Assembly (NCBI GenBank): GCA_021234155.1
Contig: JAJEKV010000081.1
Span: forward strand, 62,001 to 126,000
Length of the DNA stretch: 64,000 nucleotides
DNA from: Isoetes taiwanensis
Lineage: Eukaryota; Streptophyta; Lycopodiopsida; Isoetales; Isoetaceae
Reading direction: 5' to 3'
Below, one piece after another: positions 2,426 to 56,615 of the stretch. The number at the start of each line of letters is the position of its first letter. Within the stretch, counting starts at the first letter, position 1. Below the pieces are notes generated by a model. It was not told the origin of the DNA. It was given only the letters and a program-made list of their open reading frames with translations, and did no database searches. A program made the translations under genes and the position numbers.

Positions 2426-3415
2426 TATCTAAAAAATGAAGCGCCATGGATTTCTTGATCAAAATGACATGATCCATATTATCAGGGAGTTTCGAATGCA
2501 TGCCAAGCCTGGATAATGTTATTAAAAAGAATACGAACTCAGCTCCCCTTGTATTGTTCATAGCAAAAAACCCCTTTTACATACATCTCAATCATCCCTC
2601 TACATATATACCCCATATTCACGAGGAAATAATAAACTTTTGTATGTACTCTCTGGCCATAATCAACGTGTTTACATATTTTTGTACATATTCTATCCCT
2701 CTTAATGTGTTTTTCATGCAATTAAGCCAACACTGCATATTTTTTTCTGTACTATACATATGCAACTGCTACATAAAACCCCTAAAAGTATTCTCTGTTG
2801 TTACTTACGCACTACAAATGTGCATCCCACTTGCACTGATCACATTCATGCATCTCCATAGCTAGCAAGTCATTATAATATTTCTTAGTTGATGCAATGC
2901 TCTCAAGTTTGATCCAGTGTCTCCGGTTTGTTATTCTTGCTCTTAGGCTTATGTGCTTCTATGTCGGGACATTGCATATCCCTCATGTAAGGATACACTC
3001 AGCTTCTTCCTCCTCTTTAACTAATTGCTCAGAGAGTAACCTTCTGAGTAGCAGATTGCTACGCTGTTGGAAGTGTCTGGTCTCTCGCGATACATGACAA
3101 CACTTTGAGTTTGCCCCATGTTTAGTCAGCTTCTTAGGTGGAATTAGCTCCAGAGATGGTCTCTTGATCTTTTGCTTGGTTGGCATGCCTCCTCCTACAA
3201 ATTTCACCTTATTTCTTCTCCACCCAAATATGCAAGCATTCCATTGTTGCTTGAATTGCTTGTACACCTTGAATATCTAGCACTTCATGCTTGAGCAAAG
3301 TTTCCATGTGAAGTGCGATTTTGACCGTGGGGGCTCCTTGTATATTGGGTAAGGTGGCATAAGATCTTGTGCTATTATCCCTGACGCACTTTGTTGGTGC
3401 TAGTCTTGCTTCTTT
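2426..3415. other. No gene seen
   Basis: There are only short frames in both directions, such as an open frame at 2500-2865 rich in Phe, Tyr and Cys that looks like translated AT-rich DNA. Part of it may be older transposon sequence that I do not recognise. Confidence 0.4.
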
Positions 3416-4917
3416 GGTATTCAAATCACTAGCAATATTGGAGTTCGTCAGGGTTGCCCTTTATCTCCTACACTCTTTGGCTTGTACATTGATCAATTGG
3501 AAGAATGGCTTGATAATCATGGCGGCGGAGGTCCACATTTGGCACACTATATCATTAGGCAACTTATGTATACTGATGATGTTTCACTTCTGGCACATAC
3601 CGCTGCTAGTATGCAGCAACATTTACATGCTCTGCACAGTTTTTGTGAGAACACAGGTTTGCGTGTTAATCTCCAAAAGACCAAGCTTTTGGTAGTTCAG
3701 TCTTCTCGTCACAATGTTCCCCTATGCACTATGATAGCCGCAAAGTTGAAGTTGTAGATAGCTACAAGTATCTTGGTGTAGAATTCTGTAAGAACACACT
3801 TTGGGAACAGTGTATTACCAAGCGGGTGGCTGCAGGATGGAGAGCACTCTATGCAATGCAAAACAATTGTTTTCACAGAAATTCATGATTGGCCCCGCGG
3901 AAAGCCCACTTGTTTGGGGCTTTGGTAGAGCTTGTTTTCTTGTATGGTTACGAAGTGTGGGGGCACGCCATTAGTGCTAGTGTTTGGGAGAGTTTGGAGG
4001 CGGGTGCAAAATCCTTTCTCACTTACAACCTCGGGAGTTAAAACAACGGTGCACTATGCTATTCTTTTACAAGAGGCGGGTTTTGGCCTCTTCAACATTC
4101 TGCCATGAAGCCATCTCCACTATATCTCGCAAGGTGCACCACTTGGATGATGTTAGGTATCTGTTCTTGCACTTGCCATGGTGAATCTCCTCGGCGTTTG
4201 AAGCGATGTTGGAAAGAGCATTGCACTACATGGTTTGCCGGTTGGTTGTGCAACCGAAACCTTTGCTGATGCTTGCCGGTTCGATCCACGAGCTTTTGCA
4301 ACAACAATGGTCGTTTTTCTCAAAAGATATGGGGCCTTGCTTACTTTTGGCCCAAGTGGCGGTCATTATCATGCACACATAAATCCCACCTTGGCACCGG
4401 GGCCCCAAGCTTATTTGCTTGCTTCATTGTCGAAAACAAGCTTGTAGCTATTGCATCAATTATATCGGGGTCCCACGGTCACAGTTGAGACGGGTAGATG
4501 GGAGCGGCGCAATTGCCGCGGCGAGACTATGTGCCTTGTTGCCGATTCTGGTTATTGAAGATGAAAGCCATACTCTTCGAAGTTGCCACGCTTTTGAGAT
4601 AGTCCGGAATCATTTTTTGACCTTAGCATTCCATTCCACGCTTCCACAACTTCTCAGAGCACCATCTATGCATGACTTGGCATTATACATACTTGAGGTT
4701 CTAGATAAACGTCTGCAATTATTGAGCCCTCAGTAGTCATTATCTCTGCGCTTGTCTAGTATCATCATTCTTGCAAGGTTTTCCCTTGAAAACCTTTCGA
4801 GGCAAGGGTTTTTTAATCCTAGTAGTAATGATTGTACTAGCCCATTGTATGGGTCCCATGACCTATTGGTCTCCGTGGACGTTAAAAAAACTATTCTATT
4901 CTATTCTATTCTAATAA
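3416..4917 (+). mobile_element. 5'-truncated LINE (reverse transcriptase to 3' end)
   Basis: The fragment begins inside the reverse transcriptase, at a frame reading IGVRQGCPLSPTLFGLYID near 3438, the conserved block upstream of the catalytic site. The catalytic motif reads YTDD at about 3570 and is followed by the thumb-side NLQKTK motif near 3670. The rest, to about 4735, is broken by stops and frameshifts but still resembles the connection and C-terminal region of the other LINEs here. The 3' end has the small hairpin GACCTATTGGTC at 4860-4871, then GTGGACGTTAAAA and a (TATTC)n tail to about 4917. Everything upstream of this block is missing, as in ordinary LINE truncation. It is not functional. 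Confidence 0.8.
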
Positions 4918-7619: not shown

Positions 7620-9645
7620 CTTTATATATATAATATATAATATTTATTATCATGCCCTTTAGGACCTTGAGGTCATAGAGCAGCAAATTACATATTCTTG
7701 TTTGATTGTAAATGAATTAAAAATAGTCTATGTGACTCAACTTTCTTGAGGTAACAATCTAGCTTTCGTGGATCCATATCTAAGAGACTATGGAAATTAT
7801 GAAAACTAATATCAAATATGTCCCTGAGTTCTGCGTATGCTATGCATGTTAGGAATGCATGCTCTTCGTCTTCAATATCCTCGTTGGTGCACATCGAGCA
7901 AATTCGTTCTCCCCTTAACCCATCTCTATTTGAAGCTTATGTGAGCCCGTGTGGTATCTTGCAATGGTTTGCTTCAAGTGTCGCGCGATACATGCATGAA
8001 GATATGCTTGATCAGCGTACACAAGCATCATATTCACCTCCTTCATGTAGTAAGCCATTTTTATGCCAGGTTCATCCCAAATCCGTTGCAATACTAGTGA
8101 CTGCACCATGTCTCGCACCCCTATTTCTGAGTCTGGCCAACTTGTTCTGTTCAACCCCCAACTATCTGTCCAATCCAATACATCTTTATACCAGCCCATA
8201 CTTGTGGATGCTTCTATGGCTTTCTTTGGGATCCGATCATCATCCATCATGTGTACCCTATTAACAAAAGTTATAGTCTGGATCAGTGCCTCCGCCAGTG
8301 GCAATAAACCTACTTCTGCTAGCATAATAGGATAGGGTGTTTGCTGTTTGATGCCCATCTCCTCTTGTAAAAATATCTTCTGAACATTCTCAACCTGTTT
8401 CCATAAGCCTTCGGACAGAGTTGGCCCCCAGATTGGGGCACCATACAGTATTACTGTTTGGACCAAAGTTTTGAAAAGCATTCTTTTCAACCTCCAGTCT
8501 TGTAACGATGCTTTGCGGCACCGTCTGAGCATACCATGCAAAGCCGTTTTCCCTCCAGCTATACGTTTCTTAATACACTCTTTCCATTTATATTTTGCAC
8601 TGAACTCAAGACCGAGATATTTATAATGACTTACCGCCTCCAAAATTTCTCCGTTATAGGTGAAAAGCGGTCTGTTTAATGTTCCGCAGATCATGATCAT
8701 GGATTTAGACAAATTAACTTTCATTTTCTTCTCCACGCAAAACTCGCTCAGTGTTACTAAATGTTCCTGGAGCTCTTTAGGTGTGGCTGCCAGTAGTACC
8801 ACATCATCGGTATAGAGTAACAATTGGATTACATAATCTCCAAGACGAGTCTCTACAGGCCCTTTCTGCTCCAACCATGATTTCAATTCATCTATGTACA
8901 ATCCAAAAAGCACGGGCGACAACGGGCAGCCTTGCCTTACTCCTATTGTGCTTTGAATCTCTGTTGGATTATCTGCTAACCGAGCTTTAACTTCTTTGTA
9001 GAGTTGAGACACCGCACCCATAAATGAGATCGGGACACCAATCTCTTTCATTCGATTGCCCAATTCATTTCTTGGAACCGTATCAAAGGCTTTTGAGAAG
9101 TCAATGAAAGCAAGGAACAGCGCCTTATTCGGTTTCTTAGCCTGTTCAATGAGCACCTTCAAAGCAAGGGCGTGATCCAGAGTACTGTGCATTCTCCGAA
9201 ACCCTGCTTGGCATGTAGCTCTTGCACCAGTAGCATCTGCCCATGTGCTCAGTTTCTGCTCTAATAGGCAGCCTAATAATTTGGAGTAAACACTTCCTAC
9301 CATGATTGTACAGTAATTGCAAACATCTGTTCTTGTACCTGATTTGTGCACTGGGACGACTTTGTTTAATTTCCAGGACCTTGGCAAACCTTCCTTGACA
9401 GCAGCATTCAGGTGATTGGTTAGGATCTGGAGGAGCTTTTCATCGCCCCACTTCAGCAGCCCTGCACTCATCCCTTCAAGGTCCGCAGCCTTCCCATTCT
9501 TCATATGCTCCAAGGCAAAGCTTACCTCTGTTACTGTAAAAAGATCTTCATGCACCGCTGTAAGATCCATCTTTGGTGCATTTTCACAGTGATACAAGGA
9601 CCGTAATCCTTCATTCAACGTCAAACATTGCTCCCATGTCACTAA
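7620..9645 (-). mobile_element. LINE inserted in the copia element (5'-truncated)
   Basis: On the minus strand this runs from about 9645 (start of the reverse transcriptase part) to a TA-rich simple-repeat tail at about 7620-7650. Copia leader lies on one side and copia gag on the other, so it is a nested insertion. Just before the tail is a 3' hairpin GACCTTGAGGTC (plus strand, 7663-7674), the counterpart of hairpins in the other LINEs of this window. Endonuclease and ORF1 are absent. Confidence 0.85.
7688..9642 (-). pseudogene. LINE ORF2 fragment: reverse transcriptase with C-terminal zinc knuckle
   Basis: A 575-residue open frame (9642-7915) holds a nearly intact non-LTR reverse transcriptase. 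It contains KNGKAADLEGMS, AFIDFSKAFDTVPR, IGVRQGCPLSPVLFGLYIDE, the catalytic LLLYTDDVVLLA, NLSKSMIM and SHYKYLGLEFS, all in family order. RT makes cDNA at a nicked target. The frame shifts near 7900 and continues to 7688 with CSMCTNEDIEDEEHAFLTC, a C-terminal Cys/His cluster typical of LINE ORF2. The endonuclease is missing, so this copy cannot move alone. It is the best preserved RT in the window, and the second Asp of the catalytic pair is present. Confidence 0.88.
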
Positions 9646-10007
9646 ATATCAAATAATTCACCATAAACTCATGAATTTCTCTTATTTGCAGTAGCAAAAA
9701 GGGTGGTTGGGAAAACAAATTCATCATCAAACAAAGCACCCACCAGAAAAGTTGAATCTTGACTTTTGTCACCGAAAAGGTCTCGAAAAACTCAAATCTC
9801 CCACCAGAACTCGCTGAAAAATCCGAATCTCTCTCCCAAAACACTTCCTCCAGGCTAAAAAGCAAGAAACTTCTTCAATGCTGCAAATTAGATATTCTAC
9901 CACCAAATCTCAGCCAAAGAACTTATAATGGAAACAATGGCCAATCCAATTTGGATGCTTCTCCAATAGCTTACTCTATTCTTCCCTTGAGAAAGCATCT
10001 AATACCA

Positions 10008-12510: not shown

Positions 12511-15434
12511 GGATGCCAGACCATCAGGATCTGTTCTTGGAACATAAATGGGTTGGATGCTTTAAAGGCTGGTTCAATTGTAGAAAGATCTTAAAACGGG
12601 GCGTTGTCTTTTCTTGGAAACATACACATGAGCCGCGAGGAAAGTTGTATCTTGGAGATTCCGGTTTGTGGTTGTTTGTAAAACTTGGCAAGTAAAGGGA
12701 TGGAGACATAAAGGATTTGGAGGGATAGCATGTTATGTGCGACCGGAGTTTGGGCACTGCATTAAGGCGGTGGAAATTAAATCGCAACAGACAATCTGGG
12801 TGGAAGTTTCAGGTATTGATGGTAAATTATTTATAGGGGGGTGTTATTTTCCACCTCGTGGCTCTCCAGTGTATAATCAGGGGGATTTAGATGCAGAAGA
12901 CCCTTTTCATCATCTGGAGCAACAAGCATTGGAACTAATGGCTCTAGGGGAAGTGGTGTTAGTGGGCGATTTTAATGGAAGGGTTGGTCCTAGACAAGCT
13001 AGTATTTTTTGTGCATCAAAGGATCCCATTTGGTTAGATACTCTGAATAATGATGAAGTACAAATGGCAGGCTGGGCAAGAAAAACGGAGGATGATTATG
13101 AATATGTTACACCACAAGGCAGTCATTTATTGAATTTATTTGGGGGACTAGGTTTTGTGATATACAATGGCACATCAAATTATCCGTTATCAGGTGGAGC
13201 CACATCTAGAGGGGCTCAAAGCAGGGGATCAAGTGTGGTAGATTACCTTATTGCAGCAGATCATATGATAGACAAGATAGTAGACTTCAGGGTACAAGAT
13301 TGTCCAGAATCTGATCATTTATCATTGGTGTTCCATCTTAGAATAAGCGTACCATTGCAAGGGATGCAAGATGTGCAGCAAGAGGTAACTTCAAACCGTG
13401 TTCTCTTTGATTACTATAAAGCTGATCAATATGCAAAAAATTGTGAGGAAAAAATCAGCAATTTAGAATGGCCCACTAAGGTAACAGATTTGGATAGTTG
13501 GCTTACTACCTTGTTGATTGAAAGTGCAAATGAATGCTTTATGTCTGCTAGAAAGGCCAAGGGACTGCCATGCAATAAATGGTATGACGAGGAGTGTAAG
13601 GATTGGAGGATTAAATATAAACATGCACAGGCACATGAAAAGGAAGCCATACTGAAGATCTATAGAAAAACAAATGGAAAAAGGCGCAAATTTGAGGAGG
13701 ATAAGCGGGTGACATTTGTAAACAATATGGTGGCAAAGACTCGGAAGTTTTGGGGCGGTTTAAAAAATAGAAAGGGGCAAAAGTTCAAGTAGAGGAGGAG
13801 TTGTTAGTAGAGCACCTTACTAAACTATATCACTTGCGGGGTCCATGGGAGGATGCCGGGGAGGAAGTGAATATGGAACATTTATGGAAAAAGAGATAGA
13901 AGAGGGGTATTGGTCGGCTAGCTAATGGGAAAGCCTTGGACGCTATGGGTCTCTCTGCGAGAAATGATTATATGGGCGGGGCCACCGAACTCGAAGGTTA
14001 TTACCGAATGTTTAATCTTTCACTACGGGAAGGCTTTCCACTAGCTTGGCGGGGTAAATAGAGTAACTCCCATTCATAAAGCGGGGAGATGTGGCGAATC
14101 CGTAATTATAGAATGGTGATGGTTGGGAGTCTTTTACAAAAGCTGTTTGCTACATCTTGGAAAGAAAACTCAGCTCATGGGCGAGGGAAAAGGGGGTAAG
14201 ATCCGCAATGCAAGCGGGATTTAGACCCAAAAATCCACGATTGATCATTTGGTAACTTTTAGGGCTATATGAGAATCGGTCAAGAAGACCAAGAAACCAT
14301 TGTTTCTTGTTGTTTGTTGATTTTTCAAAGGCTTTTCGTCTGATTAAGCGGGAACATCGTGGGCAAGGATGGATAAACTCAATGTCCCAATGGATATCAA
14401 ATGCAATCATTGGCTCTACTCTATCGAGAAAGTGACGGTAAAAACTATCTTTCCGCTCTCCCAAAGACTATGAAATTGTCTCTAATATAGGTGTGAAGCG
14501 GGGATGCCCTTTGTCTCCTACATTGTTTGGCCTGTTTATTGATGAATTGGATGAATGGATAACCTCACGGGGAGGGAAGGAACATTTTTACGTGAGCATA
14601 TTATAAACTTGCTGATTTATCGCATGATGTGGTGATGTTTTCAATGTGGTGCCCAGGGTTTACAAAAGCACCTAGGTGCACTCTTTAGTTTTTGCGAAGT
14701 GATGGATATGAGAGTAAACCTTGAGAAGACAAAAATTATGATATTTGGGCAAAAGAAAACTGATCATTACACCTTTTTGTATGATAGCAAACTTGTAGAA
14801 ATCACATCTTCCTACAAATATTTGGATTTGTTAGCACACAATGACTACAAATGGAATCTAGCCGTAGACCAGAGAGTTGATGGGGGTTTAAAGGCTTTGT
14901 TTGACATGCAGAGGCGGTGCAAGAAGGCAGATCTTATTAAGTTTGATCTCAAGAAGACACTTTATGTAGCGCTAGTGCGTCCAGTTGCTTTGTATGGATG
15001 CGAAGTCTGGGGGCCTGGTCTAGCTCTGGATAGATGGAAAAGGTTAGAAAAAATTCAAAAGAAATTCATGCTTACGGAACTTGGAGTAAAGATGCAAACT
15101 CCCATAGGGATGATGCTTGCTGAAACAGGGCTTATGCCACTTGAGGTGGAAGCTTTATATCAAACAATTGTCTATGTTAGGAAGGTGTGGGCAAACAATA
15201 GAGAAGGATTACCAGGACTTGCAATGGAACAAAGTGTACACAAAGGTTGGTATGCAGATTTCTTAAAATGGTTATACAAATGGGGTATTACCTTTGATCG
15301 GATCCCAGACGATGCTAAGCAGGTTAAGGATTTTGTGTACCAGAAAGCACGAGATAAGCTATGGAGTGATCCAGGATCTAAATCTATATTTTATAGGACA
15401 CTGTTTAATCCTTCATTACGAGAGGCGCCTTACT

Positions 15435-15891
15435 TAACAACCAACACATCACTATTATTAACATTAATTAACACAAACCATTGCATCCAACACATTTAAA
15501 TTAAAATCCCCCTGAAACCCCCTTTGGTTTGGGTGCATATTCACACGGGGGGTTACTCCGGGCAACGAGAGCTGTCGGATGGGCATATTTGCCCTTTATT
15601 CCAAGATCTGGACCGTACATAGCGATCCTCGTTTGTGGGGTATGCCTGTACAAGTTTTTATACACTGTATATTAAAGTTTGCAATATACTATAAGGTTTG
15701 ATGAAATGTACTTAATGGTGTTAATTTTGTACATGTATTATAAGTTTTTAGGGGCTCTCGCTGCCCTACGTAACCCCCCGTGTGAATATGCACCCAAACC
15801 AAAGGGGGTTTCAGGGGGATTTTAATTTAAATGTGTTGGATGCAATGGTTTGTGTTAATTAATGTTAATAATAGTGATGTGTTGGTTGTTA
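15435..15891. repeat. Perfect 122-bp inverted repeat at the head of element A
   Basis: By eye, arms 15435-15556 and 15770-15891 are exact reverse complements around a 213-bp spacer. In element B the outer 65 bp of the left arm is missing and the remainder has diverged; in element C the left arm is absent. Confidence 0.9.
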
Positions 15892-20494: not shown

Positions 20495-21934
20495 GGACTT
20501 ATTCAAATCTATGCCTTCAAGGATGCCATGATAAAATCATATGTATTTTTAACTCTTGTTGATTTTAATAATTTCATCAATTTATTTTTAACATAAACGT
20601 AATCATTTGATTGAAACTAATCAAATGATTACGTTCATATTTTACTATATAAAAAAGGAGTAGTTTATTACTGATTAATTTCAATATATTTCATTTCATT
20701 AATAATAAATTGTTCAATACTTATTACAAAAACATTAACTTTATCATTTAATTAATTTCAACCTGAAACTTTTCTTAAAGTATTTTTAAAAGTGTAAAAA
20801 TTTATAAATTGTGATATTCTCATTACTAATTTTTAAGTCAATTGCTTATTAATCCATCAGGTTTTATTTAGAAATTATTATGATTGCCAAATTTTAAATT
20901 TGTTAAGATGACTCACTTTTTGCCATGTTGAATCATAGGTACAACATTAGATACCGCCTTACTTTTTACAAAATAAATATTTAAATTACATGGGATGCCA
21001 AGAGAAATTATATCCGATAGGAACTTCTTCAACATGATCCAGACTAAGTTGGCTATGAGCACGGCTTATCATCTCCAAACCGACGGTGAAACGAAGCGCA
21101 CCAACAGAATTCTAAAGATATGTTGAGAAGCTTTGTGTGGAACGAACAATCCAAATGGGGGGACTACATTTACTTTACATCCTTGGTCACCTTCTGAGTA
21201 ATTGTATATGACATTTTATATATTGTATTTTTGGTTCTCTTTTATTGAGAGGCCAATGTTGCAGGGGGGGTGTTGAAATGCCACGTTGGGCTCTCATCTA
21301 AACTTAGCTCTTCCAAGTTTAGACATGCCTTTTCCATATTTGGACATGCCTTTTTCTATGTACTTATATATGTGTTCATGTTCAATACATTGCTTGAGTC
21401 TTTGGGATTACTCCTTTGTTCTAGTCTTTTATATACTTTTGCAGTAGAATTTGCTTATAACAGCACCAAGCAGAAATCCTCCCAAATGTCCCCCTTTATG
21501 ATTAACTACGATTATCAGTGCCTGACACTAGACACTTGGCATAATCCAGTATCTAAAGTCAAAGTTTCTCAACAAATGTTGTCGGATATGCAGCAGTGTC
21601 TCTTCTAATGTTGCAGATAAGAGAAGGTAAGGGTTTGCAAGATATTATTGAAGGGCTTAGAATTGAAGCCTGTCAATTGCAAGAAGAAAGTCAATGATTT
21701 GAACTTGAAACACAAACTTATCGAATACAGGTAATTGCTTCTAACTGGTAGCTTTTTATATTCTTGAAATTTTTAATTTTAGATAGATTCAAATGAAAAT
21801 TTGTTCGGAAAGCAATGATATTTTTTTCGTTTTAAATTAAAGATAAACTTATATAATTAAAACATAATCGAGAAGAATTATATATTCTTATAATGGCGTC
21901 CTTGAAGTGTTAACTATTAAATTTGAATAAGTTC
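20495..21934. mobile_element. Inverted-repeat element X1 holding a gypsy relic
   Basis: The left end (GGACTTATTCAAAT at 20495, followed by TTCAAGGATGCCATGATAA) is matched in reverse complement by the right end (GAATAAGTTC ending 21934, preceded by a degenerate copy of the same block). The ends resemble those of element X2 at 22204-22776, so both belong to one terminal-inverted-repeat family with subterminal similarity of about 80 bp. The interior includes Ty3/gypsy integrase remnants. No transposase frame or clear target duplication is visible. Confidence 0.5.
20990..21605 (+). pseudogene. Ty3/gypsy integrase relic
   Basis: Frames from about 21050 to 21190 read [19 protein letters not shown] and FVWNEQSKWGDYI, the conserved end of the Ty3/gypsy integrase core. 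At 21436-21600 AVEFAYNSTKQKSSQMSPFM corresponds to the next conserved block. Between them about 240 bp of unrelated DNA contains a G-run followed by TGTTGAAATGCC, which resembles a polypurine tract with an LTR start. The gene is dead: it has stops and frameshifts, and the remainder of pol is absent. Confidence 0.82.
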
Positions 21935-32298: not shown

Positions 32299-33770
32299 TT
32301 GCCAAATGGTGGCACGATTGGGCGCCATCAAATAAGGAGAAGCTTTCGTGACATGTACGATATTGACTATGATATTGAAGGGGGTCGTGTCCACTCAAGA
32401 GCTCAGTCGGCGCCGCCTACCCCTCGTGTCCATTCTCGCCCAGGGTCTCCCCCTGTTTGCAAGCACTGCTCTCAACCCCAGTCGCCACACCATATACCGG
32501 TACAACCCACTCCTCATTACTTCCAAACTCCCAAGCGCTTACATTCATATCCCTGGGTGAACTCCCTTGCCTTCCCCAAACCTTCTCCCTCCTCCCCCGG
32601 GATGGGCTATCCTCATGTCTCTTTCGGCCCTCCCCATGTCCATGAATATCAGTCCTCACCATCCTTTCAGCATGCAGTCCCTGTCTACAATCTCACTGAT
32701 CTCAAGCTAAATGAGGACGGCTCCCACGGTCCTTCGGCTACGGATGCTCCTTTCTCTGGCCCTCTGGATTTTTCTGTCTCTATGCCGCCTTGCTCCCAGC
32801 CCACGGCTATTCCACAAAGCTATATTCCAGCTTATGCTCCACCTCTCTACACGCAAGGTCCGCCTCCATCTCCGGTTCAAAATCTTAAGCGCGACGATCC
32901 CACCTTTGGGAATACTAAAGGAAAGCCTCTTGATCGAAGTGCCCAAGCTCACATGGAAGAATTCGAGGCGTTGGCTATCCTCAATGGCCACGCTCAACCT
33001 CAACTCAAGTTCCACATCTTCTCCACCACGCTGCGTGGAGCCCCTCATCAGTGGCTCATGGCCAACAAAAGCCATTGGAAATAAAACTGGCAAGAGATGA
33101 AGACGGCATTTCTCTCCCATTATGGCACCACGAACGATGATCAGCAAATCCTGAAGCAACTTAATGATCTTCAGCAACAGCCCACGGAGTCTGCCCGCGA
33201 TTTCGCGGATTGCCTTCACATTCTGGTCAGCAAGCTCAAAGAGTACACCACGCAAAGCCAGATTCTTGTTTGGTTTCTGCAAGGTCTCCCTCCATCCATT
33301 CGTCTCATGACTGAGTACCTGCATCCCAAGACCTTGGAGCAGGCCATCGAATTAGTCAATCACTCGGTCAATGTCTCTTCCAGAGGTGTTGCACTCATGG
33401 AGCTTCCCTTCATGCCTCCTGTCATGGTTCCTCAGAATGCAGTTCAACCACAACAATCTGCTCCTCAACACAGCCAAATTTGGTGTCACATTTGTAAATA
33501 CCAAGGTCATCTTGCCAATGAGTGCAATGGTCCGCCTCACTGTAAAAGATATAATATGTGCAATCATACCACTGAAGAGTGTACTCGTGTGCATCCCACA
33601 CCCTTCAGACAGAAAAGGGTCTTCCAGGTGCAGACCATGCCACAACAGCAGCAACTATATCCACCTTTGCAATATCAACAAGCTCAGCAACCTCAACAAT
33701 CCCCGGGTCAAGGCTCCCGTCAACCTTTTGATCCTTTTAAAGCTCAGTGTTATCACTGTTAAGAATGGGG
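32299..33770 (+). pseudogene. gag of the gypsy-like element
   Basis: The first frame (32299-33084) has a Pro/Ser/His-rich N-terminus and then the capsid-type core: FEALAILNGHAQPQLKFHIF followed by TLRGAPHQWL. A stop follows WK at 33084, and the same protein continues from 33097 with MKTAFLSHYGTTNDDQQILK, CLHILVSKLKEYTTQSQ and WFLQGLPPSIR, matching the retrotransposon gag family. Zinc-knuckle-like clusters are at about 33484 (CHICKYQGHLANEC) and at the end (CYHC...H...C, about 33749-33790). Gag forms the particle and binds RNA. A single stop between two otherwise long frames keeps it from being intact. Confidence 0.85.
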
Positions 33771-50812: not shown

Positions 50813-52365
50813 TGTGACGTTCCAGCACAGTATACGGTCCCAGGACATATACTGTACCGCCTCGTCACGCGTACACGCCACTCCGACTGACGTGTACGCC
50901 GATGTGTAGCCAGGTGGGTAGCCCCTAAGGGGGCAACTTGCTAGGTATGTGCCTTTAATATTAATGTGCACATTTACCAATGTGCACATTAATGTGGGCA
51001 CACCTTTCCATGTGGGCACATTTTGCCACCTAGCCATTAAAGGCAAGTGGGCCCATTCCCAATTATCCCACATGCCAAAAGGGATAATTGGAAACCCTAG
51101 CATAACCCCCTTGTCTATTTAGGTAGGAGAAACCCTAATTTGGCCATTTTCGTTCCTAGGGTTTTAGAGCTCTGTTTTGGCTGCTTCAAGAGCCAAAACC
51201 GCCTCCCAGGCTTTGTCTGAGCGAATTGCACCATTAGTTTCCCTTGATTCGAGCAGTTCAGTAGGATGGTCGAACTCAGGTTAGGAGGAGCAACTCAAGG
51301 ATCAGGTATTTAGTCAATTTAATAGCCTAAACCGTCTTTTAGTCATAGAATCAGTAGGTTTAGCCTATTAAATTGCCCATAGCAGCCATCTAGATCCCTA
51401 GATACCAGACTCTAACTAAAGAACCTAACTCTATGATATAGACTAGATATAGTTCTTTAGTTCTTCTGTGATGTATATGGATGATGTATCTCTATGAACT
51501 CCTTGTATTGGGAATGGGGGAATGCTCCTAGATTAGCCTCTCTAGCACACTATAGATTCGGCCTGTGTACAAGAACCACACCTGGTTGTGGGTGAAGGGG
51601 CCAGACTGGCTAAGAAGGAGGTTCGTGTTCTGACTCTTGAACGATCCCTCTGGTGTGTAAGACCTACCGGGGATCATTGTGACTAGGTCTAATGGCTTAC
51701 CACTGAGTGTGGGTAAGGCATGGACTCGACACCCGTGAAGTGGTGTTCACTTTCCAGTGGGTTCAGTCGAATACGGGTAGTGGCCCTCTAGTCACCTTGA
51801 GTCAGCATGTAGATCTCTGGAGGGAGTGATCCCTACCTGCCCCATCGGAACTGGGGAGATGAAACCCAGGAATAGCCCTCTTTGGCTATGCATCCGGCGG
51901 GCTACAGTAAGGTCCCGACACTTTTCAGCCTACTCTGCAAAGTGTGCACAGGAGGGGCGGATGGAGTGGACAAACCTATGCCATGTTCTTATGCCAGCCA
52001 AATCCATTGCCATGAATTCTGTCTGCAATGAACTCTGGAGACCCAAGCCGTCAGTCCTCCCTTCGAGTCTGAGCCTTGGGTAGGATCCTTATGTATGATG
52101 CTGATCATTGTCTATGCAGATGTTGATGCACCACCCTTCGAGGTGGATATGTGATTATGTTGTATACTGACATGTATGTTTACGCTTCCGCAGCTAGGTA
52201 GGCCCTGAGGGAGACAGGGTAAAATGACCCCTTCACTCTTCCCACTGGAACTCGTTACGGGTGCCGTGTTATGTGGAGGGCCCTGTATCAGTATGGAGCT
52301 GGTATGGGGGATGAACTTCTGTTTGTATATGGTGAGTGCACCGTATACGAGTAGGGGACGTCACA
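50813..52365 (+). repeat. 5' LTR of the H3-carrying element
   Basis: It starts TGTGACGTTCC and ends GGGGACGTCACA; these are short inverted repeats with TG and CA ends, as LTRs have. An internal set of TGTGCACATT and TGTGGGCACA repeats lies at 50960-51020. It joins the primer-binding site after one base. Confidence 0.75.
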
Positions 52366-52366
52366 G

Positions 52367-52378
52367 TGGTATCAGAGC
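52367..52378 (+). other. Primer-binding site, tRNA-iMet type
   Basis: TGGTATCAGAGC at 52367-52378 is the standard plant initiator-methionine tRNA site, placed one base after the LTR. Confidence 0.85.
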
Positions 52379-52564: not shown

Positions 52565-52627
52565 GTCTCACACGTCGCGCCAGGACAGATAATGAGAATC
52601 TCACGGGCTGGGCGCAACGTGTGAGAC
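52565..52627. promoter_or_regulatory. Palindrome 1 (upstream of H3-like ORF)
   Basis: The left arm GTCTCACACGTCGCGCC pairs with the right arm GGGCGCAACGTGTGAGAC with one mismatch. The loop differs from those of the other three copies. Confidence 0.8.
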
Positions 52628-52774: not shown

Positions 52775-52841
52775 GTCTCACACGTCGCGCCAGGACAAAA
52801 AATGAACTTTTCATTTTCGGGCTGGGCGCAACGTGTGAGAC
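52775..52841. promoter_or_regulatory. Palindrome 2 (upstream of H3-like ORF)
   Basis: It has the same arms as palindrome 1. The loop holds a second palindrome AAAATGAACTTTTCATTTT. It ends 79 bases before the TATA box. Confidence 0.82.
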
Positions 52842-52919: not shown

Positions 52920-52927
52920 TATAAATA
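52920..52927 (+). promoter_or_regulatory. TATA box of the H3-like ORF
   Basis: TATAAATA, 104 bases before the ATG at 53024. The second module has the same box before its ORF. Confidence 0.6.
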
Positions 52928-53023
52928 GATCTAGCCCCCCCGCTTCAAGTCCCCTTCCTTAGGAAAGCTGCCCCCGCTTTAAAGCGATCTTCGGGCGCAT
53001 TTCGGATCGAAGAACCGCCAAAT

Positions 53024-54269
53024 ATGGTCCCAACAAAAGCAGATCGCCAGAAGCCCGCCAGCGAATCTTCCAAATACGCTGATCCCGCCTTTGATACGAG
53101 GGATACTGCAAGAACGCCTTTTCAGGCAAGGCGAATCTTTATCAAGTGAGGAGGCAGACTCAGTCCAAAGCGACGGGACAGAGGTCCTAGACGACGAGCG
53201 CCCAGACATCATGCACCAAATCCTCGAAGAAGTCGCCGAGGAGGAAAGGAGGAGGAAGGAGGAACGGGAACAGCACAGACAGCCGACCATCGAGGAGCAA
53301 CTCGAAGCTTGGGCTCGTCTGAAGGAGGCTGAGGAGAGAGAGGAGCAGCAGCAGCCGAGGCTTGATCCTGCTGAAGAAGAAGACCTCGCAGCGTTCATCA
53401 GGAAGTACGAAGCCAAAGAGCGTCGCCGAGAGAGGAAGAGAAAGAGACAGGAGGAGGAGCCTACCACAGCCGGCGAGCCGAAGAAGAAGAAGGGCAAGGG
53501 CATAAAGGCGGGCAAAAGAACAGTTGTGAAGGTTAAGAGGGTAAAGGGTGTAGCCATCAACGAGCCATCAGGCGAACAGACCCTGCCCTCTACCAACGAC
53601 TACGACGAAGATTACGTCCCCAACACTGAGGGGGCAAGCTCTTCAAAACCCCCGGTCGTGGAGAAGGAAGTACCTGAGCAGGTGGCACCTGAGCAGGAGC
53701 AGCCCGGGCAGGCACCGAAGCCCCCACCCTACCCAACGTGGGATAAGAACAAAGCCCAGCAGCCACAACGGGAGGCGTATGTGATAGACCCCGTAAAGGT
53801 CTATCAAAAGAAGCTGAAGGAACACAATGCCTTCATGGCGAAGTGGGAGGCATACAATGCTTATTATCAGGAGCACAGAGTAAGAACCATCGAAGGTGGA
53901 GTGCCCCCGAAACAGACTCTGAAGCTGCCACCACCGAAGCCCAAGCCTCCTAGAGCACCAGGGAAGAAGAGGACCGACAGGAAGCAGTCGGAGATAAGAG
54001 CTCTCAAGGAGATCCGGCACTTCCAGCGAAGTTACGGATTTTTGATTCCCCGAGCACCGTTCGCCCGCCTGGTCCGAGAAGTCATCCAGGAATACAACAC
54101 GGACATGAGGGTGACCGATGAAATGTTGCTGTGCATACAGGAGGCAGCAGAGCAGAAACTGGTGCAGCACTTTGAAGATTCGACGGCCTGCACAGTTCAC
54201 GCGAAGAGAGTCACACTCATCAGGCAAGACATGCATCTTGCTAGGCACATTAAGGGAGAACGCCCTTAA
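53024..54269 (+). CDS. Histone-H3-fold protein with a long N-terminal extension
   Basis: The open frame runs from 52983 to 54269. The last 89 residues (from 54000) are a full histone H3 fold: ALKEIRHFQRS (alpha-N), FARLVREVIQEY (alpha-1), NTDMRV (loop 1), an alpha-2 helix with QEAAEQKLVQHFED, HAKRVTLIRQD (loop 2) and the end MHLARHIKGERP. Loop 1 has the length of canonical H3, not the longer loop of CENP-A. About 300 residues precede it: an acidic and Glu/Arg-rich coiled region, a basic PKKKKGKGIKAGK nuclear-type signal and Pro-rich stretches. The frame has no ATG before 53211, but an ATG in good context at 53024 (MVPTKADRQK) is in another frame that stops at about 53148, so a one-base shift may be present. 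H3 pairs with H4 in nucleosomes; its role here is unknown. Confidence 0.8.
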
Positions 54270-54413: not shown

Positions 54414-54480
54414 GTCTCACACGTCGCGCCAGGACAAAAAATGAACTTTTCATTTTCGGGCTGGGCGCAACTTGTGAGAC
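54414..54480. promoter_or_regulatory. Palindrome 3 (between the two ORFs)
   Basis: It has the same arms and loop as palindrome 2, with one change in the right arm (CTTGTGAGAC). It lies 145 bases after the H3-like stop. Confidence 0.8.
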
Positions 54481-54612: not shown

Positions 54613-54679
54613 GTCTCACACATCGCGCTAGGGCAGAAAATGAACTTTTCATTATCGGTCTGGGCGCAACGTGTGAGAC
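54613..54679. promoter_or_regulatory. Palindrome 4 (upstream of ORF2)
   Basis: A slightly diverged copy (left arm GTCTCACACATCGCGC) with the right arm intact. It is about 200 bases from palindrome 3, close to the 210-base spacing of palindromes 1 and 2. Confidence 0.8.
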
Positions 54680-54870: not shown

Positions 54871-54878
54871 TATAAATA
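54871..54878 (+). promoter_or_regulatory. TATA box of ORF2
   Basis: TATAAATA in the context CCTATAAATAG, the same context as the first module, 122 bases before the ATG at 54993. Confidence 0.6.
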
Positions 54879-54992: not shown

Positions 54993-55872
54993 ATGGCCAC
55001 TGCTAACTTCAGGCGATGGTACAACGCCAGTGCCCATGCTGCCGAAGCGGATGTCAATGACATCTTCCGAGTCTTTGGAAAAGAAATAGATGTCCAAGCC
55101 ACTCTGAATGCAACCCCAGCATATAGACAAGTTCTAGCAGAGTTCCAAGCTAGGGTAGGACCCTCCCTAGTCCAGCTCCCCCCTTGCATAGGCTATTTTG
55201 TTCCCCGCCCATCCCTTCAAGCAGCCTTGGGTGATGTCCCGAACATCGCCAAGTACTTGACCAACAAGGCACAGAGGCTGCCAGATTACATGGTCCTGAC
55301 AGTTAACAGGACCAAGTATTTCTCCTACACCGCCGCCCTAGCTAAAGATAAAGATGGAAAAGTATTGTTGCCAATGGGAGAGCCAGAACCATTGCCTCTA
55401 GTTGAACGGATGAGAGAACATGATAACATTGTATCAGGCATTTCTAAATACTTAGATTTTTGGAAAATTGGTCTTGTTATGATGACCTAATGGGACCTGT
55501 TATTGAATATTGGAAGAATGTTTTGAAAGAGCTTCAAAAAAGCCCTATAAGATACAACAGGCTATATGGGGGTTTTGGCCTCGTTCCCAATGGAACTCTG
55601 GAGAACCAAATATTCAAGAAGTATTGGAAGAGGTAAACAACTTAGAAGAAGAAGTAGAACATTATTGTGGTCCTGCTAGTGGTCGACCTAAGGAAGTTTT
55701 TAGGCCTGAGAATGCCAAAATGAATGTGCACTTGGTCAGGGGTTCAACCCTGGCCAGTGTATGTTTAGTTTTGGGAGTTGGTTACTGGGGTTATACGATG
55801 ATGATCCCCGACGTGGTAGAACTTGTGCCTATACGTGTCCTCCACTTTGTCTGCCATAAGGCAGCAGGATAA
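54993..55872 (+). pseudogene. ORF2 of the H3-carrying element, unknown, frameshifted
   Basis: From an ATG in good context (CAATGG, 54993) the protein starts MATANFRRWYNASAHAAEAD and stays open to 55490. It reads IDVQATLNATPAYRQVLAEF, NIAKYLTNKAQRLPDYMVLT and ISKYLDFWKIG. The next frame carries on with VIEYWKNVLKELQKSPIRYN, and a third (55510-55872) has an acidic coiled stretch (EVLEEVNNLEEEVEHY) and a hydrophobic segment LASVCLVLGVGYWGYTMMIP. Two frameshifts may separate one original protein of about 280 residues with a possible membrane segment near its end. I recognise no family, and it is not a histone. Confidence 0.5.
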
Positions 55873-55904
55873 GCTCCACAATAATTGTGTGATATAATCT
55901 AGTT

Positions 55905-56080
55905 GATAAGGGAAAAAAGTTCGAAAACATTAAACTTGGTCCATATCCTCTCATTTTCAACAGAACCCTAGCTGTACTATGATGTGCTTCCCCATAAGTA
56001 TCTGGCAACCAGATGTGCAAGGGAAAGATTGCCAGTCTCACAACATAAGCTATAGGGAAGCCTAAGTATAAAACTATCTC
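55905..56080 (-). pseudogene. ndhD: Plastid ndhD fragment in the nucleus (NUPT)
   Basis: The minus strand reads [20 protein letters not shown] and, after a small deletion, VLLKMRGYG. This is the signature of the plastid NAD(P)H dehydrogenase subunit ndhD (PLHTWLPDTHGEAHYST in functional copies). The DTxGEAHxST block separates it from mitochondrial nad4. Only about 45 codons survive, with deletions and no start. It is a decayed transfer from the plastid genome. Confidence 0.75.
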
Positions 56081-56615
56081 TAAAATATTATGGCATGGGA
56101 TTTATTAACTAATTTTTGAGAGTCCAATGTTGCTTCATCATGGTAATGCAAATTAAACCTAATAAATGACTATCTAATGTACAAATACCTTTTCTATATA
56201 CAAAATAAAATAAAACCAAAATATGAAAAAATAGCTTGACTTCCAACCAATGTTGTTGTTAAGCTTGTTAAGCTTTTGCAATTTCTTAGTTGAAATTTGT
56301 ATTTTGAATGGTAGTCGATGGGTGTTTGCTTGTAGGTGTTTATCCCAATGCAATGGCCTAGGTCACTTTTCTCACTTCCATAGCAGTTGGTGGGTCACCC
56401 CATCCCAATGGCCTACGTTTGTTATACACCTAGCTACTTGAGTCTACGTTTGTTATACATCATTCTATTGTTTTTGGAAGTGTAGTTCATAATGAACACA
56501 ATCAATCAATGAAGAAGTGTGATTCATACGCTCATCCTTTCCTCTTTCCTCTTCGGACCTGGATGTCGTAAGATTATATATTAAGATGAAGGTAAATTAC
56601 AAAACTTAAATTTCC
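56081..56615. other. No gene seen
   Basis: AT-rich DNA with no coding sequence that I can support. Confidence 0.45.

Follow-up and report, generated by a model that had tools for sequence, protein, structure and literature searches.

The occurrence of a core histone fold next to a long terminal repeat raises the question of whether the histone belongs to a retroelement and, if so, what the element might do with it. The window (the whole stretch of 64,000 nucleotides from Isoetes taiwanensis that was analysed) contains a 5′ LTR of 1553 bp with TG...CA ends (TGTGACGT / ACGTCACA; 50813..52365, + strand), in agreement with the LTR pairs of other copies. One base after the LTR lies the primer binding site TGGTATCAGAGC (52367..52378, +), which we take to be of the initiator Met tRNA type. 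It is followed by ORF1, the H3-variant gene (53024..54269, +), located in a G+C peak of the window (0.555 at 53001-54000), and by ORF2, with an ATG at 54993 and a conserved N-terminal part (54993..55344, +) delimited by comparison with other copies. This layout, with an LTR and primer site upstream, a second ORF downstream and a G+C-rich island, is that of the initial annotation. The same holds for the H3 fold at the C-terminus of ORF1, which spans 90 codons from alpha-N to the terminal GERP (53997..54266, +). The window ORF1 frame matched the Pfam Histone family with E=2.4e-24 and H3.3 in the PDB (4h9o) with 2.9e-27, the latter without gaps over query residues 264-391.

The continuous ORF first described at 53024..54269 had to be corrected. 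The ATG at 53024 and the histone part are in different frames, separated by a frameshift, and the main ORF1 frame of 392 codons (53091-54266, +) carries the rest of ORF1 including the histone part. Because of this frame change after the ATG, the window copy is broken near the start of ORF1, and the MARTKQTARK tail that starts at 53024 is degraded. ORF2 is interrupted too: its continuation (55345..55872, +) is frameshifted and, from about 55345 onwards, has no counterpart in any of the other loci fetched. By eye, 55345-55872 ends in a membrane-like stretch, and it may be recombinant or represent a different version of ORF2. A plastid ndhD-like fragment (55832..56101, outer bounds approximate, − strand) occupies the truncated end and seems to be plastid DNA inserted where the element breaks off. 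No second LTR was found within the 64-kb window. The window copy is a decayed, truncated family member and, for this reason, the remaining argument rests on other copies.

Other mobile sequences were seen in the window. Two LINE-like ORFs were assigned to reverse transcriptase by Pfam (7918-9648, −, and 3404-3754, +), a further one at 12632-15499 (+) is LINE-like by eye only, without a Pfam match, and 33085-33759 (+) encodes the gag of another Ty3/gypsy element (Ty3_capsid, Retrotrans_gag). An Rfam search of the window gave no match at the gathering threshold.

To place ORF1 in its genomic context, the genome (1,658,258,908 bases in 1110 contigs) was searched with the ORF1 protein. At least 119 matches were obtained at no fewer than 105 main places, window included, spread over many contigs; the 105 scored places are part of 22,943 first-look candidates. 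The match was free of stops at 69 of these places and contained stops at the other 36. Twenty stretches of 10 kb, covering seven of the scored places, were fetched. In the four elements checked (C919, C1053, C1045 and C1071), LTRs were present at both ends, the length was 12-13 kb and the order was LTR, ORF1 (H3), ORF2, gag-protease, RT-RNaseH-integrase-chromodomain, LTR. The C1053 element, of about 13.2 kb, is flanked on both sides by GATTG, a 5-bp target duplication seen for this element only. Its LTR pair is 99.1% identical (13 mismatches over 1509 aligned positions), its 5′ LTR being without about 165 bp, and the LTR pairs of the remaining three elements are 92-96% identical. Recurrence of the ORF between paired LTRs, proposed beforehand as a check, was thus observed.

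Searching parts of C919 and C1053 (L012, L018) against Pfam identified Retrotrans_gag, RVP_2, RVT_1, RT_RNaseH, Integrase_H2C2 and rve. In L012 these domains are spread over several frames, as is the pol of C919. A chromodomain was detected at the integrase C-terminus (PF00385 Chromo, 1.7e-10 and 9.1e-10), with yeast Chd1 as the best PDB match and, as judged by eye only, two of the three cage residues seemingly absent. The carrier is therefore a Ty3/gypsy chromovirus plus two extra ORFs. No relatives were found in a search of viral contigs.

We then examined the ORF1 protein in 31 copies of this family (family 1). The exact MARTKQTARK start was found in 27 of the 31 copies; counting single-residue variants in two others (MARTKQTVRK, MARTEQTARK) the tail is present in 29, and it is absent from two. 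Three of the 27 exact-tail copies carry later in-ORF stops. The same canonical H3 N-terminus occurs in the two host H3 genes fetched (L056, L057). Genome-wide, a codon pattern for MARTKQTARKP matched 419 sites (216 forward, 203 reverse) and its backwards control none; the pattern admits Ser at the Arg positions, with no such case among the places listed, and the 419 sites attest the tail pattern alone. Host H3 is not counted by this pattern, since S follows ARK in host H3.

Between tail and fold, ORF1 has a linker composed of a serine-rich stretch, an acidic stretch and then basic and proline-rich parts. In the L019 product the fold begins at residue 327 of 416, for which reason we label the protein an H3 variant instead of a canonical H3; the uninterrupted H3 tail of about 45 residues ahead of the fold was not found in ORF1. 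With MARTKQTARK at its start, ORF1 corresponds to an H3 in which about 310 residues are inserted between tail and fold. The initial annotation had described some 300 residues foreign to H3 tails. This part is not wholly foreign to H3, since most copies examined elsewhere begin with the H3 tail. By Pfam, ORF1 contains one Histone stretch and no second fused core histone fold.

Identity of the family 1 fold to host H3 is 53-59%, and the GERP end is kept. Position 11 of the protein (H3 S10) is P in 26/26 open copies having the tail, and P also occupies the R63 position, a DNA-contact position of H3, in 25/25 copies. When L019 was compared with host H3 at contact positions, all 8 H3-H3′ positions were identical, as were 6 of the 9 DNA contacts, with 2 conservative changes and 1 loss. 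Structure prediction from the single sequence of the isolated H3 part of the window copy was of low quality (mean pLDDT 57).

Selection was estimated on 25 of the 31 copies; L003, L004 and L006 were set aside for stops and L002, L033 and L036 for a broken C-terminus, L002 having one change in the tail. The dN/dS ratio was 0.014 for the tail (23 copies with tail; bootstrap 0-0.06; pS 0.50), 0.051 for the fold (25 copies; bootstrap 0.03-0.08; pS 0.43) and 0.17-0.36 for the parts between them (25 copies). With all 26 open-frame copies having the tail, the tail value was 0.010. Differences at first, second and third codon positions were 0.037/0.008/0.331 in the tail and 0.063/0.025/0.266 in the fold, third positions dominating. 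In segments from the seven loci that were retrieved in longer stretches, dN/dS was 0.23 for ORF2, 0.30 for gag and 0.30 for pol (9, 9 and 6 locus pieces, respectively), and six ORF1 copies of loci fetched at length gave 0.060 for the fold, a tail pN of 0 and 0.152 overall. Since 20 of the 31 copies were picked for stop-free frames, which favours conservation, the comparison of ORF1 with the other genes is biased; that of tail and fold with the linker within ORF1 is unaffected. These results show purifying selection on ORF1, strongest on the tail and the fold, and the dN/dS below 1 anticipated for the H3 part was obtained. We consider it virtually certain that family 1 ORF1 is a histone H3 variant of a chromovirus, kept by purifying selection.

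TATAAA precedes the ORF1 ATG by 108-112 bases in all 11 other copies examined, and the ORF2 ATG by 122-123 bases in all nine copies, of the 11, in which the latter could be located. In the window, TATAAATA lies upstream of ORF1 (52920..52927, +) and of ORF2 (54871..54878, +), and two hairpin repeats of 63-67 nt precede each TATA box (52565..52627 and 52775..52841 for the first, 54414..54480 and 54613..54679 for the second, all +). Their arms hold GTCTCACACGTYGCGCC in inverted pairs. Forty-one hairpins were located at similar places in 11 copies, where a complete set would number 44. For each of the four hairpins of the window, folding is stronger than in any of 200 shuffled versions (z-scores -5 to -7). 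However, among the 41 hairpins of the 11 copies no paired arm changes were found, and one-sided changes affected 19/697 positions. An RNA-structure reading is therefore not backed, there being no covariation despite strong folding, and the lack of paired changes suggests that the hairpins may act as DNA sites. We infer that ORF1 and ORF2 each probably have their own promoter with a repeated regulatory module. A candidate TATA box ahead of gag, present in 3 of the 6 loci with an aligned gag start, falls in an A+T-rich stretch and is not claimed.

The ORF2 protein, of 508 aa in L019 (1521-3044, −), matched no Pfam family at E up to 10, and its best PDB match, at E=0.033, involves an acidic stretch of low complexity. 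Within ORF2, constraint is highest in the first 118 residues (dN/dS 0.11).

Is family 1 the only H3-bearing family of this genome? A search with an H3.3 string, in which 150 of 8797 candidates were scored, returned 15 loci at 91-92% identity, taken as host H3 (two were fetched), and at least 135 more at 73-83%, many of them within frames longer than 400 aa. Six fetched ORFs constitute family 2, with the H3 fold at the end behind another N-terminal domain. Their folds, analysed as ten sequences (the six ORFs, L054 and the three fragments L058-L060), are 84-88% identical to host H3, with a dN/dS of 0.023. In families 3 (4 ORFs) and 4 (2 ORFs), 72-79 of the 90 fold residues are identical to host H3, giving 80-88% identity over families 2-4. 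The N-terminal sequence of families 3 and 4 is related to that of family 2 (27.9-31.1% identity, E 1.9e-35 to 3.6e-51); a domain IPYPxFxxxExFxxKLN...YTxVEQ is common to the ORF1 proteins of families 2-4 (L049-L055, L063-L068). None of the three has a free ARTKQTARK N-terminus.

The element context was seen for one family 2 copy, families 3 and 4 being known from ORFs alone. This copy has a primer site upstream and, downstream, an ORF2-like protein, gag, RT to integrase and a chromodomain-like end. Its pol is 76-79% identical to that of family 1 and its ORF2-like protein is weakly similar to family 1 ORF2 (E=2.6e-6). The window itself carries a 132-bp fragment (21444-21575, +) with 77% identity to the pol (integrase) region of a family 2 H3 element. 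In a tree of 27 rows, including 14 of the 25 family 1 folds and with a bootstrap not quite settled, families 2-4 form one group (98/95) and family 1 stands apart (100/99), with cellular H3 between them. This topology favours, without proving, at least two recruitments of H3 into the lineage. Judged from these sequences, the chromovirus lineage is one that encodes H3 variants under selection.

What could the element gain from such a protein? In the explanation that we find best, and that we hold to be as apt to prove right as wrong, the element would express its H3 variant from its own promoter, pair it with host H4 and load it onto DNA. Production would depend on the TATA box and the repeated hairpin module. 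Pairing would use the retained fold, and H4 pairing is the simplest reading of H3-H3′ contacts and most DNA contacts being as in host H3. The variant would be loaded most likely on the element's own new copies, and the inserted linker may serve as a chaperone-like or localising arm. The tail would still be readable and writable at K4 and K9, the H3 sequence carrying K14 to K36 having been replaced. The purpose could be to impose or escape silencing of the element, or to label nucleosomes for the element's chromodomain integrase. We further infer, in line with an initial suggestion, that ORF1 may associate with chromatin or with some particular nucleosome environment. Deposition on DNA as the actual mode of action falls somewhat short of an even chance. 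Against the explanation stand the modest identity of the family 1 fold to that of the host (53-59%), the lost R63 contact, the large insertion, which could hinder nucleosome assembly, and the missing tail of two of the 31 family 1 copies and, as a free end, of families 2-4.

Alternatively, ORF1 may act as a decoy, its tail and fold binding H3 writers, readers or chaperones so that host silencing is blunted without entry into nucleosomes. Constraint is strongest on the tail (dN/dS 0.014), with its free ART end and K4/K9, and the residues after K9 diverge, P standing at protein position 11 in 26/26 open copies with the tail. A decoy, however, need not keep a whole fold, yet the fold is constrained (dN/dS 0.05, and 0.023 in family 2), and the free tail is absent from families 2-4, so that we regard this reading as unlikely. 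The basic linker together with an H3 fold could instead indicate a packaging histone, which would condense the cDNA or RNA of the element in virus-like particles or in a pre-integration complex, as do histones of DNA viruses; giant viruses are reported to build nucleosomes from their own histones. We rate this as rather unlikely, since the element cargo found is of H3 type only (in searches confined to H3) and ARTKQTARK, unnecessary for packing, is nevertheless kept.

A more far-reaching version of the deposition reading is that the lineage runs its own chromatin circuit. The H3 variant would mark the element's own copies, or chosen host sites, and the integrase chromodomain would read them for self-targeted or protected integration. 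The K4/K9 tail would be kept and residues with other silencing marks discarded, H3 having been recruited at least two times. We offer this as a speculation that would more probably fail than hold, and by a wide measure.

A centromeric role seems very doubtful. In this reading, the family 1 fold would have its origin in CENH3, or mimic it, and would guide the element to centromeres or act as a competitor in their chromatin. Family 1 shares ALKEIRHFQK, LLIPxAPF, VTLMR and a final P with plant CENH3, and the single CENH3 included branches between family 1 and canonical H3 in the tree, where it forms a long branch. Like CENH3, ORF1 combines an H3 fold with a divergent N-terminal region. However, CENH3 is characterized by a longer loop 1 and a divergent C-terminal end. 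Loop 1 of ORF1 has the canonical length, the alignment with H3.3 being gapless, the GER(P) end is canonical, the protein starts with the canonical ARTKQTARK and is encoded by a transposable element, and the matches are scattered over many contigs. A host CENH3 could not be picked out among the H3 sequences of the genome.

There is hardly any room for a captured host H3 gene that is merely copied along without function: capture of H3 by fungal hAT transposons is documented (PMC6710886), and the window copy and 36 of the 105 scored places are decayed, but the substitution pattern (dN/dS 0.014-0.05 at pS 0.43-0.50, third-position changes dominating) and the persistence of the fold in four diverged families refute this reading. 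Finally, the view of ORF1 as a plain host gene for an H3 variant with an unrelated LTR nearby, suggested by the window alone with its one LTR and no second, is practically untenable, being refuted by the copy number (at least 105 places), by the four elements with LTRs at both ends and by host H3 genes at separate loci 91-92% identical to H3.3; all that the initial annotation had named as fatal to its own reading, i.e. a single copy, a missing second LTR or a host H3 next to an LTR by chance, is thereby excluded.

To our knowledge, core histones are genes of cells, apart from those of some DNA viruses and a capture by fungal DNA transposons. An H3 kept by a retroelement under a constraint at least as strong as that on its own gag and pol would imply that transposons can combat chromatin silencing, or redirect it, by providing the nucleosome itself. 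That selection keeps H3 intact suggests that it helps the element to control its chromatin surroundings. The finding may also bear on the missing partner of plant type II retrotransposon chromodomains, if the chromodomain of the element is of type II; in the parts of the two papers available, an interacting partner of these chromodomains is described as not found (PMC3350952; PMC6317226).

The novelty suggested in the initial annotation is in keeping with the open-licence literature: among the matches listed, judged by title and start of the abstract, none reports histone genes in LTR elements. The word 'histone' is absent from the available text of the I. taiwanensis (PMC8566536) and I. sinensis (PMC10541799) genome papers and from that of the main text of a 2026 review on gene capture by plant transposons (PMC13317346). 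In the portion available of a survey of plant LTR retrotransposon domains, it appears once, for a chromodomain ligand (PMC6317226). The elements described here share with plant Ty3/gypsy chromoviruses the order of gag, PR, RT, RH, INT and chromodomain, the LTRs, the primer site and the 5-bp target duplication. They differ by two extra upstream ORFs, the first of which encodes an H3 variant.

Captured ORFs are reported from bdelloid LTR elements (PMC5408684). A closer parallel is provided by orchid Gypsy elements, which, as stated in the accessible text, carry an ORF for an AlkB m6A demethylase (PMC9289625). Here too, a plant Ty3/gypsy lineage has an extra ORF in which a functional domain of host type became fixed; in contrast to a core histone, AlkB is an enzyme acting on RNA. 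The accompanying screen covered 121 angiosperm genomes and 25,565 consensuses and yielded 15 unusual domains; lycophytes lay outside it, and histone is not among the nine domains named in the section text available (PMC9289625).

Multiplication of an H3 coding sequence by a transposon has been reported for fungal hAT elements, in which the carrier is a DNA transposon as opposed to an LTR retroelement with gag-pol. According to the excerpt available, in Pseudocercospora fijiensis 90% of the copies are truncated and all but the original are inactivated, many copies are potentially active in Pyrenophora tritici-repentis, and no fusion with a long new segment is described (PMC6710886). Viral singlet histones (bracovirus H4, NCLDV) resemble ORF1 in that, in the part of the source available, a mobile or viral genome carries a constrained histone with an extended tail and likely host nucleosome partners, the bracovirus H4 fold being about 87% identical to host H4 (PMC9145170). 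Viral histone doublets consist of two fused folds, unlike the single Histone stretch of ORF1. These viral histones are encoded by DNA viruses, whereas the protein described here is the H3 of a retroelement, into which some 310 residues are inserted internally.
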